The notes under the pieces: generated by a model
Told to the model about the DNA's origin: nothing
What the model saw: only the letters and a program-made list of their open reading frames with translations
Databases searched by the model: none
Translations under genes and position numbers: made by a program
From: Syntrophomonadaceae bacterium
Lineage (GTDB): Bacteria > Bacillota > Syntrophomonadia > Syntrophomonadales > Syntrophomonadaceae
Reading direction: 5' to 3'
NCBI GenBank assembly: GCA_012729495.1
Contig: JAAYCZ010000236.1
Location: 1-32,298, forward strand
Length of the DNA: 32,298 nucleotides
Part shown: positions 17,794 to 31,898 of the stretch, piece after piece
How the letters are laid out: every line of letters begins with the position of its first letter
Numbering within the stretch: position 1 is the first letter of the stretch

Positions 17794-19506
17794 ATGGCAT
17801 CAACGGAAAATGAAACAGGCGAAATAGTATCATCAGGCAATTTTATTCAAACCATCATCAATGAAGACCTGGAAAAAGGCAAAAATGGCGGCAGAGTACA
17901 TACGCGTTTTCCCCCCGAACCAAACGGCTATCTTCATATCGGCCATGCCAAATCGATATGTCTGAATTTTGGTTTGGCCGTTAATAACGGAGGTATCTGT
18001 AACTTGCGGTTTGATGATACCAATCCCAGCAAGGAAGATGTGGAATATGTCGATTCTATCCAGGCCGATGTAAAATGGCTGGGTTTTGATTGGGAAGACC
18101 GCATGTTTTATGCTTCCGATTATTTTGAGCAGCTGTATGAATTTGCCGTCCAGCTGATCAAGTCCGGTAAAGCCTATGTATGTGATCTGAGCGCCCAGGA
18201 AATAAGAGAATACCGCGGCACTTTGACCGAACCGGGCAAGAACAGTCCTTACCGGGATCGTTCCAGCGAAGAGAACCTGGATCTTTTTACTCGTATGCGC
18301 AACGGTGAGTTCGAAGATGGCTCCCGGGTTTTACGGGCCAAAATTGATATGGCTTCGCCCAACCTGAATATGCGTGATCCGGTCATTTACCGGATCTTAA
18401 GAGCCACCCATCACCGTACCGGTGACAAGTGGTGCATTTATCCCATGTACGATTATGCCCATCCTTTGTCGGATGCGGTGGAGGATATTACCCATTCTGT
18501 CTGCACCCTGGAGTTTTCCGATCATCGTCCGCTCTATGACTGGTGCCTGGATAATATCGACTATGATGCGGCCACTCATGGAAGGCCCCAGCAGATCGAA
18601 TTTGCCCGGTTGAACCTTAATTATACGGTTATGAGCAAGCGCAAACTGCGTGAATTGGTGGAAAAGAAGTATGTAAGCGGCTGGGATGACCCGCGTATGC
18701 CTACTGTTTCCGGCCTGCGCCGGCGCGGTTATACCCCGGAATCAATCCGTGACTTCTGCACCCGTATTGGGGTAGCCAAGCGTGACAGCACGGTTGACAT
18801 CGCCCTGCTGGAGCATTGCGTACGGGAAGATCTCAATCTCAACGCGCTACGGGTCATGGCCGTCCTGCGGCCGTTAAAGGTCATCATCGACAATTACCCG
18901 CAAGGCCAGGTGGAATGGTTGGAAGCGGAAAACAATCCGGAAAATCCGGCCATGGGTACGCGCCAGATCCCCTTTTCCCGGGAAATTTTCATTGAGCAGG
19001 AAGATTTTATGGAGAATCCTCCCAAAAAGTTTTTCCGTTTGACTCCCGGCGGAGAAGTAAGGCTAAAGAGTGCCTATATAATCAAATGTGAACAGGTGAT
19101 TAAAGACGAGCAGGGTAATATCATCGAGCTGCACTGCAGTTATGATCCTGATTCCAAAAGCGGCGGAGCAACCAGTGCTCGCAAGATCAAAGGCACTTCC
19201 CACTGGGTATCAGCTGCGCATGCGATTCCGGCCGAAGTACGTCTCTACGAGCATCTGTTCCTGACGGAGGATCCTGATGATGAAACCGACGGCAGCGATT
19301 ACAAGAGCAAGCTCAATCCGGATTCACTGCAGATATTGGATAATTGTATGCTTGAGCCTGGTTTGGCGGAGGCTTCGGTAAATGATCGTTACCAGTTCAT
19401 GCGGCAGGGTTACTTCTGCCTGGACCCTGACACCAGTCCCGGGAAATTAGTATTTAACCGCATCGTTTCACTGCGGGACAGCTGGGCCAAAGCAAAAAAG
19501 TCATAA
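17794..19506 (+). CDS. glnS: Glutaminyl-tRNA synthetase
   Basis: Class I synthetase charging tRNA-Gln directly with glutamine. 570 residues, close to the E. coli enzyme. [17 protein letters not shown] holds the HIGH motif (48-51); the second ATP motif is MSKRK (280-284) in the class-typical [11 protein letters not shown]; two beta-barrel anticodon-binding domains fill the C-terminal part from about 350. GGAGGAAAACCA directly precedes the ATG. GlnRS entered bacteria from eukaryotes and only some Firmicutes have it; most use GatCAB, so its presence is a useful taxonomic trait. A TATAAT box lies at 17696-17701 but its -35 partner is poor. No T-box is visible in the ~190-bp leader, unlike tyrS below. 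Confidence 0.95.
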
Positions 19507-19566: not shown

Positions 19567-20289
19567 ATGAATCCACTGAACCAGCGGGAAGAATTGATGC
19601 GCTTCGAAAATATAACCAAGACATATGATATGGGCGAAGTAAAGGTTGAAGCTCTTAAGGAAAGCTCGTTTGATATCCGGCGCGGAGAATTGATCGTCAT
19701 TCTGGGGCCAAGCGGATCCGGCAAAAGCACCCTGCTTAATATTATGGGCGGCATGGATACGCCTGACCGCGGACAGATATATTTTGAGGGCCGCAGCCTA
19801 AGCCGGGCCGGCAGTAAGGAGCTGACCCAGTACCGCCGTCATGACATAGGATTTATTTTTCAGTTCTACAATCTCATTCCCGATTTGACTGCTTACGAAA
19901 ATATTGCTCTGGCTGCCGAACTGGTGGACAATCCTTTAACAATTGACGAAGTTCTGGAAGAAGTAGGGCTGACCGAGCGCAGGGATCATTTTCCGGCCCA
20001 ATTAAGCGGAGGCGAACAACAAAGGGTGGCGATTGCCCGGGCTTTGGTGAAAAGACCCAGGCTGCTTTTATGTGACGAACCAACCGGTTCGCTGGATGAT
20101 CAGACCGGCAAAATGGTTCTCGGATTATTGAGTCGTATCAGCAGCAAGGAAAAAATGACGGTAGTCATTGTTACCCACAACACCAGCATCGGCCAGATCG
20201 CTGATCGGATCCTGCGACTGCGCAGCGGGCAGATTATAGATATCATCGTCAATGAGAATCCTTTGCCGGCAGAAAGGATTGAGTGGTAA
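19567..20289 (+). CDS. ABC transporter ATP-binding protein, MacB/LolD/YknY type
   Basis: Cytoplasmic ATPase of a three-gene exporter. 240 residues from ATG at 19567. Walker [10 protein letters not shown] is at 47-55, Q-loop Q99, signature [15 protein letters not shown] at 146-160, Walker B LLLCDEP at 167-172 and H-loop H204; all catalytic residues are intact. [20 protein letters not shown] is typical of the LolD/MacB-associated group, which drives mechanotransmission rather than substrate passage through the membrane. The start is uncertain: GGGGAG directly abuts the ATG at 19567, while ATG at 19597 ([10 protein letters not shown], the usual N-terminus) has only a weak site. The stop codon overlaps the permease start (TAATG), so the two are translationally coupled. 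Confidence 0.92.
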
Positions 20290-22667
20290 TGTCGACCCTG
20301 AGCCGCAAGTTGTTACGTACCATCCACACTACCCGGGGCCAATTCATTGGTCTGGGATTTATCGTTACCCTGGGGGTAATGGTTTATATCGGCATGGGAA
20401 CGGCTTACAGTAATCTCAGCCGCTCCCAGCAGGATTTTTATCAGGCGGCCAACTTTGCCGATTATTACTTTCAGGTAGTTCGCGCGCCAGCTTCAGTCAG
20501 CAGCAAAATCGAATCGATACCGGGAGTAGTCAAGGCCAGCGGTCGGATCCAGAGCGACGTTTCTCTGCTCAAGGAAGGTAGCCGGCGGGCGGTGGGAAGG
20601 ATCACTTCCTATAATCTGCCCCAGGCGGGAGAAGTCAACCAGCTTCATCTTCTGAGCGGTCGGATGTTTGCCTCCCGCTCTTCCGGAGGAGGGGTCGAGG
20701 TACTGCTGGATCCGCAATATGCTGATGCCAATCACATCCAGATCGATGACATCATAACGATCATTGCCGAAGGCAGGAAAGTAAATCTGCATGTGGTGGG
20801 GACTGCCATCAGCCCGGAATTTGTCTATGCTCTGCCGGATGCCGCCACCATGATGCCAGATCCCTTGAATTTTGGCATTATCATGATGGCCACTGAACAA
20901 GCCCAACAGATTCTGGATATGCCTGATCAGGTCAACCAGATCGTGGTCAAGCTGGCCTCCGGGGCGGATGAGAAAGCCATACCGCAAAGAGCGGAAGAAC
21001 TCCTGCAAAGTTACGGCAATATTGCCAGCTATCCGCGCAAAGACCAGCTTAGTCATGCCATGTTGCAGGCTGAACTTGACGGGCTTAAAATTAACTCTCA
21101 TTTTCTGCCGCTGGTTCTTCTGCTGATAGCTGCAGCGATCCAGTTTGTTATCCTAAACCGTCTGGTCAAATCACACCGTACCCAGATCGGAATTATGAAA
21201 GCCATTGGTTATAATGATTTTAAAATCATCGGCCATTATACTGCTTATGCTCTTAGCGTAAGTGTGTTGGGATGTATAATCGGAATCATCGCGGGGGTTT
21301 TATTGGCTTCATTTATGTCTTCGATTTACAGCTTGTACTTTAATTTGCCCCAGGCGATCAGCGGAATCAATCTGAAAACGTTGCTGCAAAGCGTTGCTTT
21401 GAGCATATCGGTCGGGGCTGCTGCAGGATTTTTGGCTGCCCGTTCGGTGATTAGGATAAATCCCGCTGAAGCCATGCGGCTGCCGGCTCCGCCCCAGGGT
21501 AACAAGATCCTGCTGGAAAGGTGGCGGGGATTATGGTCAAAACTGAACAGCAGCTGGAAAATGAGTCTGCGTTCCATCAGCCGCAACCGGGCCCGATCCC
21601 TGGTAACCATTCTGGGAGTAATGAGTGCGGTAGTGCTGCTGGTTTTTTCAATGTTTACCAACGATGCGGTGGATTATATGCTGAACCGGAATTTTCAGGA
21701 TGTTAATCGTTATGATTATATCGTGCGATTTGCCGAACCGATCGAATACCGGGAAATACAATACTGGCAGCAATGGGAGGATATTTATCAAATTGAGCCG
21801 CAGCTGGAAATGCCGATAAAAATTTATTATAACGGCCGCAGCGAAGACGAACTCTGCATTGGCATGACAGTTGATGGTGATTTAAAAAGGGTGCTGAACC
21901 AGGCGGGCGAACGTCTGCAAATTCCTGAAGCAGGTCTTCTTATCAGCCGGCGCATGGCGCAAAGACTTGGAGTGGAAACAGGTGATAAAGTCAGGGTTGA
22001 AACCAAAATGTCAGCGGGTGCATCCCACACCGCGGAGTTGCTGGTCATAGGCATCAACGACCAGCTGATGGGTTCGGGTTCCTATGTATCACTGGATACT
22101 GCCAACCGGATGATTAACGAGAAACGCATCATCAATACCGTGATGCTCAAAGCCGCTCCCGCCAGTGCAGCCGAACTTGAGAAACAGTTTGATGAAATGC
22201 CCAACGTCAGTTCAGTGACGAGTCGTGCTGAGGAACTGCAAAGTTATTATACCCTATTGGATACAACGGTTTATTTTATCGGAATCATGATCCTGCTGTC
22301 AGCTTTGCTGGGGTTGGTCATTGTTTACAATTCATCTATAATGGCGTTTAATGAGCGTAAAAGGGAACTGGCTTCTTTACGGGTGCTGGGTTATTCAAGC
22401 TCTGAAGTGGCAAGTGTTTTAAGAAAGGAAACCTGGCTCCTGGCGGTTATCGGTATGGTTTTGGGCCTGCCGGCCGGCAAAGGTATGGGTCAGGCTTATA
22501 TAGCCAGTGTAAGCACCGATCTTTACAGTTTGCCGGTGATTATATATCCGCGCAGCTATATAATGGCGGCCCTGGGGGCAGTTGTATTTGTCGCTATCGG
22601 TCAATATCTGGCCACTCGCAAGGCGGGACGGCTGGATATGGTCGAGGTTCTAAAAAATCGGGAGTAA
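20289..22667 (+). CDS. ABC transporter permease with two FtsX domains
   Basis: Membrane subunit of the exporter, 792 residues. The ATG at 20289 overlaps the ATPase stop codon as TAATG and has AAAGGA ten bases ahead; an in-frame GTG at 20283 is less well spaced. Layout: N-terminal membrane segment (about 15-38), extracellular MacB-like domain (about 50-260), first FtsX domain with three membrane segments (about 265-390, ending VIRINPAEAMRLP), a further membrane segment near 435-460, a second extracellular domain, and a second FtsX domain (about 655-792) with FNERKRELASLRVLGYS, the conserved cytoplasmic coupling region. Duplicated FtsX architecture resembles two fused half-permeases, so it may act as a single chain rather than the MacB dimer. 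Substrate unknown: antimicrobial peptide or lipoprotein-like cargo is possible. Confidence 0.9.
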   Translation: MSTLSRKLLRTIHTTRGQFIGLGFIVTLGVMVYIGMGTAYSNLSRSQQDFYQAANFADYYFQVVRAPASVSSKIESIPGVVKASGRIQSDVSLLKEGSRRAVGRITSYNLPQAGEVNQLHLLSGRMFASRSSGGGVEVLLDPQYADANHIQIDDIITIIAEGRKVNLHVVGTAISPEFVYALPDAATMMPDPLNFGIIMMATEQAQQILDMPDQVNQIVVKLASGADEKAIPQRAEELLQSYGNIASYPRKDQLSHAMLQAELDGLKINSHFLPLVLLLIAAAIQFVILNRLVKSHRTQIGIMKAIGYNDFKIIGHYTAYALSVSVLGCIIGIIAGVLLASFMSSIYSLYFNLPQAISGINLKTLLQSVALSISVGAAAGFLAARSVIRINPAEAMRLPAPPQGNKILLERWRGLWSKLNSSWKMSLRSISRNRARSLVTILGVMSAVVLLVFSMFTNDAVDYMLNRNFQDVNRYDYIVRFAEPIEYREIQYWQQWEDIYQIEPQLEMPIKIYYNGRSEDELCIGMTVDGDLKRVLNQAGERLQIPEAGLLISRRMAQRLGVETGDKVRVETKMSAGASHTAELLVIGINDQLMGSGSYVSLDTANRMINEKRIINTVMLKAAPASAAELEKQFDEMPNVSSVTSRAEELQSYYTLLDTTVYFIGIMILLSALLGLVIVYNSSIMAFNERKRELASLRVLGYSSSEVASVLRKETWLLAVIGMVLGLPAGKGMGQAYIASVSTDLYSLPVIIYPRSYIMAALGAVVFVAIGQYLATRKAGRLDMVEVLKNRE

Positions 22668-22679
22668 AGGAGGAAGAAA

Positions 22680-23831
22680 ATGAAAAAAAGGATCCGGATT
22701 GCGGCGGTTATAGTCATAGTAGCAGCTTTACTCATCATGCAGAGCTTGACCGGAGGGCAGCAGGTCGCATTGCTTTCCGCCGAAACCGGTGATATAAGCA
22801 CCTGGGTCGAGGATACCGCCTATGTGCAGTCTCAGGACGAGGTAACCATCCAGGCCTCCCAGGGCGGCAAGGTCGTTAAGGCAGCGGTCGAAACCGGACA
22901 AAAGGTAGTTATCGGTCAGGAACTGCTGGTTATTGACAATCCTGATCTACAGTATCAGTTGAATGCGGCTGCGGTACAAACAGAACAACTGCAGGGGCAG
23001 CTGTCCGCATCGGTAATTGCTTTGGAGCAATCACGTCTGGATCTAAAGGAAGATCAGAAAAATCTGGAGCGTTCCCAGCAGCTTTTCGAGTCCGGGGCTA
23101 TATCCCGGGCTGAGTATGATGTCAGTGTACAAAGAAATCTTACTCTGCAGAAAGCAGTCGAAAGCCAGCAGCAAACCCAGCAATCATTGCGCCGGCAGCT
23201 GGAAAAACAAAATACCCTGTATCAGGAACTGAAGGAGACCAGTGCACAGTTGGTGGTTAAAAGTCCCGCCGCCGGAACGGTGCTTGATCTCCCGGTCAAA
23301 GAACAGCAAACCGTAATGGTCGGAACCTTATTGGCTCAAATCGGCAGTGTAAATGACCTGGAGCTGAAAACGGAACTGTTAAGCGATGACATCGGCGCAG
23401 TCAAGGTTGGCCAGAAGGCGGTCATCAGCGCTCCGATTCTGGGAGATACCGTGCTTGAAGGCGAAGTGACCAAGATCTATCCACGCGCTTATGAAAAGGT
23501 TTCGGCTCTGGGAGTGGTCCAGCGCCGCGTGCCGGTGCTGGTTTCATTGCCGCCTGCAGAACTGCTGGAGCCGGGTTATGAAGTGCAGGTCAGAATCGAA
23601 ACCAGCCTGAAACGCAATGTGATAACGCTGCCGCGTACCGCTCTCCGGGTCAATGATAAAGGGCAAAACGAAGTACTGGCCGTTATCAATGGAAGGATCA
23701 AACACAAACAGGTTCGGATCGGGATCAGGAACCCTGAAAAGGCAGAAGTAATCAGCGGGTTAAAAGCGGGACAAACGGTGGTGCGCGATGCCAGCACTGA
23801 TATCAAAGAAAATACCCGCATCAAAATTTAA
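22680..23831 (+). CDS. HlyD/MacA-like membrane-fusion protein
   Basis: Adaptor of the three-gene exporter. 383 residues with an N-terminal membrane anchor (about 5-22), a biotinyl/lipoyl-like half (VTIQASQGGKVVKAAVETGQ), a long alpha-helical hairpin rich in Gln and Glu (about 95-185), the second lipoyl half (LVVKSPAAGTVLDLPVKEQ), then beta-barrel and membrane-proximal domains ending GLKAGQTVVRDASTD. No lipobox is seen. AAAGGAGGAAGAAA precedes the ATG, 12 bp after the permease stop. In Gram-positives such adaptors (YknX of Bacillus) work with an ATPase and a permease without an outer-membrane channel; the usual gene order is adaptor first, whereas here it is last. Confidence 0.9.
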   Translation: MKKRIRIAAVIVIVAALLIMQSLTGGQQVALLSAETGDISTWVEDTAYVQSQDEVTIQASQGGKVVKAAVETGQKVVIGQELLVIDNPDLQYQLNAAAVQTEQLQGQLSASVIALEQSRLDLKEDQKNLERSQQLFESGAISRAEYDVSVQRNLTLQKAVESQQQTQQSLRRQLEKQNTLYQELKETSAQLVVKSPAAGTVLDLPVKEQQTVMVGTLLAQIGSVNDLELKTELLSDDIGAVKVGQKAVISAPILGDTVLEGEVTKIYPRAYEKVSALGVVQRRVPVLVSLPPAELLEPGYEVQVRIETSLKRNVITLPRTALRVNDKGQNEVLAVINGRIKHKQVRIGIRNPEKAEVISGLKAGQTVVRDASTDIKENTRIKI

Positions 23832-23870: not shown

Positions 23871-24173
23871 CTAAAAACGTTCCCGCAGATATTCTTCGCC
23901 GACTTCTTTAAGATAATTAAGCAAAGCCTTCCGTTCAGGAAGTGGAATCTGCCGTAGGCGAACTTTTTCATGACAGTGAGGACAGACCAACTGATAATCG
24001 GAATATTTTTTGGGGTCATCAAGTGCCTCCAGGAGAAGCAGCAATAACGTAGGGCAGGTTTTTTCGCCCTCGGAAAAGGCTGCTGCCGTTTCCAGGGTCC
24101 AGTTATATTCATTGGCGTCTTTGCCACAAGCCGAACAATAAAGCATCAGCGTGGCGGCGGGATTATTTCTCAT
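23871..24173 (-). CDS. Small Cys-rich protein, paralog A of a divergent pair
   Basis: A 100-residue protein of unknown function. Five cysteines lie as CxxC (C13, C16), single C40 and CxxC (C64, C67), a likely zinc-ribbon-like site. Notable words are NEYNWTLETAA (21-31), TCPTL (39-43), LVCPHC (62-67) and VGEEY (91-95), all shared with the divergent gene at 24312. The central stretch after TCPTL is a leucine-rich helix. The frame opens at 24191, but ATG at 24173 aligns exactly with the paralog's start (MRNN against MRND) and has GAGGAAG about ten bases ahead. No signal peptide or membrane segment, so cytoplasmic. I recognise no named family. Confidence 0.78.
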   Translation of the reverse strand: MRNNPAATLMLYCSACGKDANEYNWTLETAAAFSEGEKTCPTLLLLLLEALDDPKKYSDYQLVCPHCHEKVRLRQIPLPERKALLNYLKEVGEEYLRERF

Positions 24174-24222
24174 GACCTTTTTCTTCCTCATTGAAAATGG
24201 TTAAGCAATTCATAACGCCATT

Positions 24223-24251
24223 ATTTTATGCCAGAAGAGAACAAAAGACAA
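24223..24251 (-). promoter_or_regulatory. Putative promoter of Cys-rich paralog A
   Basis: On the minus strand TTGTCT (24251-24246) and TAAAAT (24228-24223) are 17 bp apart. Predicted transcription starts near 24216, about 43 bases before the ATG at 24173. No equally clear promoter is seen for paralog B on the other strand. Confidence 0.5.
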
Positions 24252-24311
24252 GTACGGCAGTTTATAACGGAAAGATCTGTCATATGAAAAATAAAACAAG
24301 GGTGGATTATG

Positions 24312-24617
24312 ATGCGCAATGATATGAATGCACAACTGATGATAAAATGCCCGGGCTGCAAGAAGAGCCGTAACGAGTACAACTGGAGCTTAAAAACCGC
24401 TGCGCGTTATTCAATCGGCGCGGATACCTGCCCCACCCTGATCCAGGTGCTGCTGGCCTCTTTGGACGGGGACGAGGAAACTTTTGCTGGTTTCCGCCTG
24501 GTATGCCCCAAATGTAATTACGGTATAAACTATGAGGAGTTGGAAAAACCTGCTGCAGAAGAAATCCGGGCCTATGCTCGGGCGGTAGGGGAAGAGTATT
24601 GTTATTTCTGGTATTAA
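24312..24617 (+). CDS. Small Cys-rich protein, paralog B of a divergent pair
   Basis: A 101-residue protein of unknown function, about 40% identical by hand alignment to the product of the divergent gene at 23871-24173, with a single one-residue gap. The same cysteines occur (C13, C16, C40, C65, C68) plus one extra, C97. NEYNWSLKTAA, TCPTL, LVCPKC and VGEEY are conserved. Of two adjacent ATGs (24309, 24312) the second is used because it aligns with the paralog and is better spaced from AAGGGTGGA. The C-terminus (YCYFWY) is aromatic where paralog A is basic (YLRERF), so the two have diverged at the end. Cytoplasmic; zinc or metal binding is inferred only from the cysteine spacing. Confidence 0.8.
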   Translation: MRNDMNAQLMIKCPGCKKSRNEYNWSLKTAARYSIGADTCPTLIQVLLASLDGDEETFAGFRLVCPKCNYGINYEELEKPAAEEIRAYARAVGEEYCYFWY

Positions 24618-31619: not shown

Positions 31620-31898
31620 ATGGAATTTATTTTAGCAATAATTTTTTGGATAATTGGCTTATGGATCCTGTATTGTGTAATTAAGAGTGCAATAGACAAC
31701 TCCGAGACAGCTCAAAATATTAAAATATTAACCAATATGTTGAGTAAAGAATATTCCTCTACGGTATGCAAGGATGAAAACGACCAGGAAATGGATATAT
31801 CTATAGATAGATGCCCTGCATGCGGAGCGAAAATCTCCGAACAAGATGAGGCGTGTTCTTCCTGCGGATTAAAGATTATTTCAGAAATACGAGAGTAA
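31620..31898 (+). CDS. Small membrane protein with C-terminal zinc ribbon
   Basis: A 92-residue protein, unrecognised. One hydrophobic segment at about 3-22 is followed by a polar linker and a C-terminal zinc-ribbon-like module C65-PA-C68 and C79-SS-C82 (RCPACGAKISEQDEACSSCG). Similar tail modules occur in many membrane-tethered proteins of Firmicutes. ATG at 31620 is 12 bases from AAGGAG; a nearer ATG at 31609 is out of frame and leads to a very short ORF. It lies 73 bp after the preceding membrane protein gene and 62 bp before the next secreted protein. Confidence 0.68.
   Translation: MEFILAIIFWIIGLWILYCVIKSAIDNSETAQNIKILTNMLSKEYSSTVCKDENDQEMDISIDRCPACGAKISEQDEACSSCGLKIISEIRE

Follow-up and report, generated by a model that had tools for sequence, protein, structure and literature searches.

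A conserved divergent pair of paralogous small proteins with a predicted zinc-ribbon fold in one family of anaerobes

The zinc-ribbon families Zn_ribbon_3 (PF13248), Zn_ribbon_4 (PF13717) and DZR (PF12773) contain two CxxC knuckles in beta hairpins. Four-cysteine ribbons of this pattern are typical of structural zinc, and nucleic acid and RNA polymerase are common binding partners of zinc ribbons. The YgiT/MqsA-type zinc finger is a further small zinc domain, in which two CxxC motifs are followed by a helix. Two adjacent genes, A and B, in the window (the whole stretch of 32,298 nucleotides that was analysed) encode proteins that resemble the three ribbon families in having two such knuckles, and sub-threshold knuckle matches to these families occur in 13–16 of the 25 members of the A/B family that were aligned.

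Both open reading frames were confirmed at their proposed location, with the stop of A at 23871 (minus strand) and the stop of B at 24617 (plus strand):

23871..24173, minus strand: gene A, a predicted 100-residue zinc-ribbon protein; start assigned by alignment with 12 orthologues
24312..24617, plus strand: gene B, a 101-residue paralogue of A

A longer A frame opens at 24191; however, a start codon (10 ATG and one TTG) is aligned with residue 7 of this longest frame in 11 of the 12 other A proteins, and 24173 is therefore the likeliest start. For B, the likeliest start is 24312, which is preceded by GGGTGG, rather than the in-frame ATG at 24309. These starts leave 138 bp between the two genes, in agreement with the divergent pair across about 140 bp described in the first-pass annotation. 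In the congener G001 (locus L064, 195–536), the A gene has ATC at the usual position of the start codon, with GGAGG eight bases upstream, and its true start is uncertain. A third copy was not found in the genome that contains the window. The window also encodes, at 31620–31898, a small protein whose N-terminal part includes a hydrophobic stretch and whose C-terminal domain matches Zn_ribbon_3 above cut-off; this protein is unrelated to A and B.

A single BLASTP comparison aligned A and B with 42 of 97 residues identical (43%), 63 of 97 similar and one single-residue gap (E = 2e-29), which excludes chance as the source of their likeness and reproduces the initial hand count of about 40 identical residues per 100 with one such gap. 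The motifs CxxC, NEYNW, TCPTL, LVCP and VGEEY are common to both proteins of the window, as had been noted. The family alignment comprises 25 proteins (13 A and 12 full-length B). Only the two CxxC motifs are universal among the cysteine motifs of the family, and their four cysteines are kept in all 25 members. The lone cysteine that had been listed as a shared feature does not hold for the family, since it is kept in 12/12 full-length B proteins and in 1/13 A proteins. The cysteine positions are as follows:

24126..24137, minus strand: first zinc knuckle of A, CSAC (C13, C16), invariant in 25/25 family members
23973..23984, minus strand: second zinc knuckle of A, CPHC (C64, C67), invariant in 25/25
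24054..24056, minus strand: lone cysteine of A, C40, present in the A protein of the window only; T, V, S or Q in other A proteins
24348..24359, plus strand: first zinc knuckle of B, CPGC (C13, C16), invariant
24504..24515, plus strand: second zinc knuckle of B, CPKC (C65, C68), invariant
24429..24431, plus strand: B-specific cysteine C40 in TCP, kept in 12/12 full-length B proteins; candidate extra thiol

Twelve positions are invariant across the 25 aligned proteins: a leucine, the four cysteines, E-Y-x-W, the proline of the second knuckle, and a C-terminal tyrosine, glycine and tyrosine. Each group also has invariant residues of its own, Y12, N21, N24, T26 and E69 in A, and T39, C40, P41, G60, G71 and W100 in B. 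The C-terminal tails do differ between A and B, as first described, but each is conserved inside its own group; the B tail has an invariant tryptophan followed by tyrosine or leucine, and the A tail ends in tyrosine or phenylalanine. B proteins are acidic (mean pI 4.8, mean net charge −5), and A proteins are slightly acidic (net charge −1.5).

The additional cysteines bear on whether the pair could act as a thiol or metal switch, in which the four-cysteine site would free zinc on oxidation or metal exchange and the extra cysteine of B would be a reactive thiol. Such a switch is consistent with the invariant fifth cysteine of B (C40) and a sixth (C97) present in 9/12 B proteins, and with the ArsR-type regulator and P-type metal ATPase found at the replacing stretch in the congener G002 (see below), which may be a coincidence. 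However, A has no conserved extra cysteine, no metal-transport or redox gene is linked to the pair across genera, and the four-cysteine ribbon pattern points to structural zinc. We therefore consider a switch improbable. The redox or metal sensor proposed at first pass is not upheld: its one item of positive evidence is the extra cysteine of B, and the lone cysteine is not common to A orthologues.

AlphaFold2, run on the family alignment, gave a confident model of A, with a pLDDT of 94 and a pTM of 0.85. In this model, a ribbon hairpin is followed by two helices inserted before a second hairpin, and by a C-terminal helix; the strand pairs around the two knuckles are 9–11/18–20 and 60–62/69–71. 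B folded alone, without an alignment, gave a poor and uninformative model. A and B are predicted to adopt a zinc-ribbon fold with two CxxC knuckles and one metal ion per protein, most probably zinc. The suggestion that the proteins bind metal is in line with the four-cysteine zinc-ribbon fold predicted for A.

The family was found in 13 of the 63 genomes of the order, and all 13 carriers have exactly one A and one B. They belong to the GTDB family of the window itself and are spread over seven of its genera. Among 398 genomes sampled across the phylum, there were three matches, all from the same GTDB family. Other phyla were covered by a genome-contig scan with a single protein, which is sensitive to close relatives, so that more distant ones may exist there; its sole match beyond chance was the congener G001 (contig JAGFXV010000164.1, 7045 bp, equal in length and content to G001:C176). 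Two Caldiserica matches in the first genome scan (L004 and L006) were to ribosomal protein L24, in which CPHCHEK occurs by chance; the matches at L005 and L007 span the same residues. The pair is absent from G022, a closed genome of 2,936,195 bp in the same GTDB family, and from the close congeners G002 and G010. This patchy distribution indicates that the pair is not essential. The expectation that it might be conserved in other Clostridia was too broad, as all genomes found to carry it belong to a single GTDB family; occurrence in a single genome with no selection on the cysteines, which had been named as a possible refutation, was not observed, given 13 genomes and purifying selection on both proteins. 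A literature search found nothing on this pair.

One branch of the maximum-likelihood tree, with support of 100/99, separates the 13 A proteins from the 12 B proteins. A and B are thus two well-separated orthologue groups, and the duplication predates the genera. Across 11 genomes, the distances among A proteins track those among B proteins (r = 0.92); over nine genomes, both also correlate with rpoB distances (0.84 for A and 0.77 for B). These correlations reflect co-inheritance. A–B identity is 0.37 within a genome and 0.36 between genomes; being no higher within, it gives no sign of gene conversion. On the rpoB tree of 56 genomes, presence of the pair is patchy and needs seven changes. We interpret this pattern as largely vertical descent accompanied by losses, with some transfer possible. 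For close pairs, dN/dS is 0.03–0.16 for both genes, so both proteins are under purifying selection.

The two genes are divergent in 11 of the 13 genomes, with a start-to-start gap of 86–138 bp in nine of these 11, and of 229 and 337 bp in the other two. The neighbouring genes change from genus to genus and are mostly oriented towards the pair; therefore, each gene is usually its own transcription unit, and no third gene is linked. The divergent linkage has been lost in genus g9, yet A and B are both retained there. In G028 of this genus, the order is B, enoyl-CoA hydratase and glutamate dehydrogenase, and these genes run towards A. The same neighbours are found in G074, where they lie on two contigs and nrfHA is located upstream of B. 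In G074 (L061, 839–2927), B lies just downstream of genes for a cytochrome c552 nitrite reductase and a NapC/NrfH-type protein in the same direction. A general link to cytochrome c nitrite reductase was rejected as inconsistent, with PF02335 present in 8/13 genomes with the pair (one a fragment only) and in 14/50 others.

In the window, a MacB-type ABC exporter operon (ATPase, FtsX permease and HlyD; 19567–23831) is found that is absent from the same place in G002. Between the homologue of 17794–19503 and an MBL gene, this pair-free congener has other genes, among them those for an ArsR-type regulator and a P-type ATPase, in place of both the ABC exporter and the pair. The locus is a variable site rather than a clean empty site.

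The promoter features of the pair are as follows:

24174..24311, no strand: divergent intergenic region, which must hold both promoters
24223..24251, minus strand: candidate sigma-70 promoter of A, TTGTCT-17-TAAAAT, a consensus match only; hexamers and spacing identical in the congener G001

Consensus matching revealed no comparable sigma-70-type site for B in the intergenic region. The A–B intergenic region of G031 (L056, 9534–9640) contains a perfect 13-bp inverted repeat, TAAAAGTATTTTA, with arm starts 46 bp apart, that was not found in other loci. A common operator was rejected, as no inverted repeat is common to the loci.

These features bear on whether A and B are zinc ribbons that bind nucleic acid, such as transcription factors with their own divergent promoters among their targets. 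The compact shared promoter region, 86–138 bp in 9/11 loci, the perfect repeat in L056 and the frequent binding of nucleic acid or RNA polymerase by zinc ribbons would suit such a role. However, no DNA-binding domain was found over cut-off, the repeat is not shared across loci, and B is clearly acidic. The charge of B, with A slightly acidic, favours protein rather than nucleic-acid binding. We regard direct action on nucleic acid as improbable.

The patchy presence, with seven changes on the rpoB tree, and the isolation of the two genes in varied contexts are also features that a two-gene accessory cassette, such as a toxin–antitoxin or phage-defence pair, might show. Against this, the two genes are homologues of one another and divergently oriented, whereas toxin–antitoxin genes are unrelated and lie in one operon; each genome has a single copy of A and of B, and their history tracks that of rpoB. 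No relatives of A or B were found in plasmid, phage or viral-contig collections, and a mobile element was rejected on this basis. A cassette of this kind is very improbable.

The best explanation, in which we have middling confidence, is that A and B form an obligate partnership, probably an A:B heteromer that acts as a protein-binding adaptor or regulator. If A and B need each other, this accounts most simply for their strict pairing and early divergence, for their standing apart from other genes and for the survival of both where the locus was rearranged. The first-pass annotation had suggested heteromeric or antagonistic partners. Its view of the genes as a duplicated pair is supported, since the duplication is ancient and the pair is conserved, divergent and under selection in other genomes; partnership is favoured by the finding that each genome with one paralogue has the other, even where they are not adjacent. 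The two proteins would then be two halves of one small cytosolic system. In each chain, two CxxC knuckles would hold one structural zinc, with a helical stretch between them and the C-terminal helix after. Specialisation of A and B would have followed the old duplication, and the back-to-back promoters would allow the two to be made together. The heteromer, a heterodimer in the simplest case, would act on other proteins; we infer both the A:B contact and the adaptor role. Against a partnership, co-retention and correlated distances are in part expected from neighbouring genes with a shared history.

A and B might instead not touch. They could be zinc-ribbon adaptors that act in parallel on separate targets of one pathway, or antagonists that compete for one target. 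Two specialised proteins would fit the shared fold family, the marked group-specific residues, the difference in charge and the separate promoters. The strict one-to-one co-retention in 13/13 genomes is, however, more simply explained by direct partnership, and proteins that act apart seem unlikely. Like the thiol switch, the DNA-binding regulator and the defence-type cassette, action without contact, antagonistic or not, is ranked below the A:B heteromer.

With the A:B heteromer as the preferred reading, the pair can tentatively be described as a heteromeric module of two genes that is restricted to one lineage. Both subunits would have a zinc-ribbon fold not described before, with an inserted helical part and a helix at the C-terminus, and the module may be a regulatory adaptor peculiar to this family of anaerobes. 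The biology of the pair is well supported and its range is narrow. It illustrates cleanly how a small protein can be duplicated in nature and become a fixed pair: there are two orthologue groups with one copy each, the unit contains no further gene, and both members have been retained together despite rearrangement. With only two proteins of 100 residues, the partnership is directly testable. The pair also represents a protein family not described before, in a group of anaerobes with many genes of no assigned function.

The absence of a recognised family, proposed at first pass, was borne out by profile searches. No Pfam or NCBIfam model reached its curated cut-off (the highest-scoring match of A was to CoiA_N, at 19.3 of 26.3 bits, and that to NCBIfam reached 22.2 of 70), and there was no full-length match to a characterised family. 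A Foldseek search with the A model against the PDB and viral models returned nothing with E below 0.001. Its top match, PF0385 of Pyrococcus furiosus (PDB code 2k5c), is also one of 13 weak profile matches, and is not significant by either measure (Foldseek E 0.44, TM 0.37–0.40; profile E 1.4). CpXC (PF14353) resembles the family by eye on the two alignments, with a CPxC, a tryptophan nine residues after the knuckle, a helix starting at a proline and a further CPxC; its C-terminal half (LYHD ... DDR) is missing from A and B, and its profile has no match in G000 or any searched pair-bearing genome. Kinship with CpXC was rejected, since, among 150 CpXC alignments whose columns were shuffled with the cysteine motifs left in place, 36 scored at least as high as the real one, for which the hhalign probability was 90. 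A matches the YgiT/MqsA-type model TIGR03831 over nine residues, below cut-off (E 0.08, 13.2 of 20.2 bits); unlike YgiT/MqsA-type systems, A and B have no nearby toxin partner gene. Matches of A and B of the window to Zn_ribbon_3, Zn_ribbon_4 and DZR lie below the curated cut-offs and span little beyond the knuckles. In contrast to these three families, A and B have 47–48 residues with two helices between the knuckles, and a conserved helix after them. Thus, with no Pfam or NCBIfam model over cut-off and the CpXC likeness failing the shuffled-column control, we regard A and B as a new family with a predicted variant of the zinc-ribbon fold.
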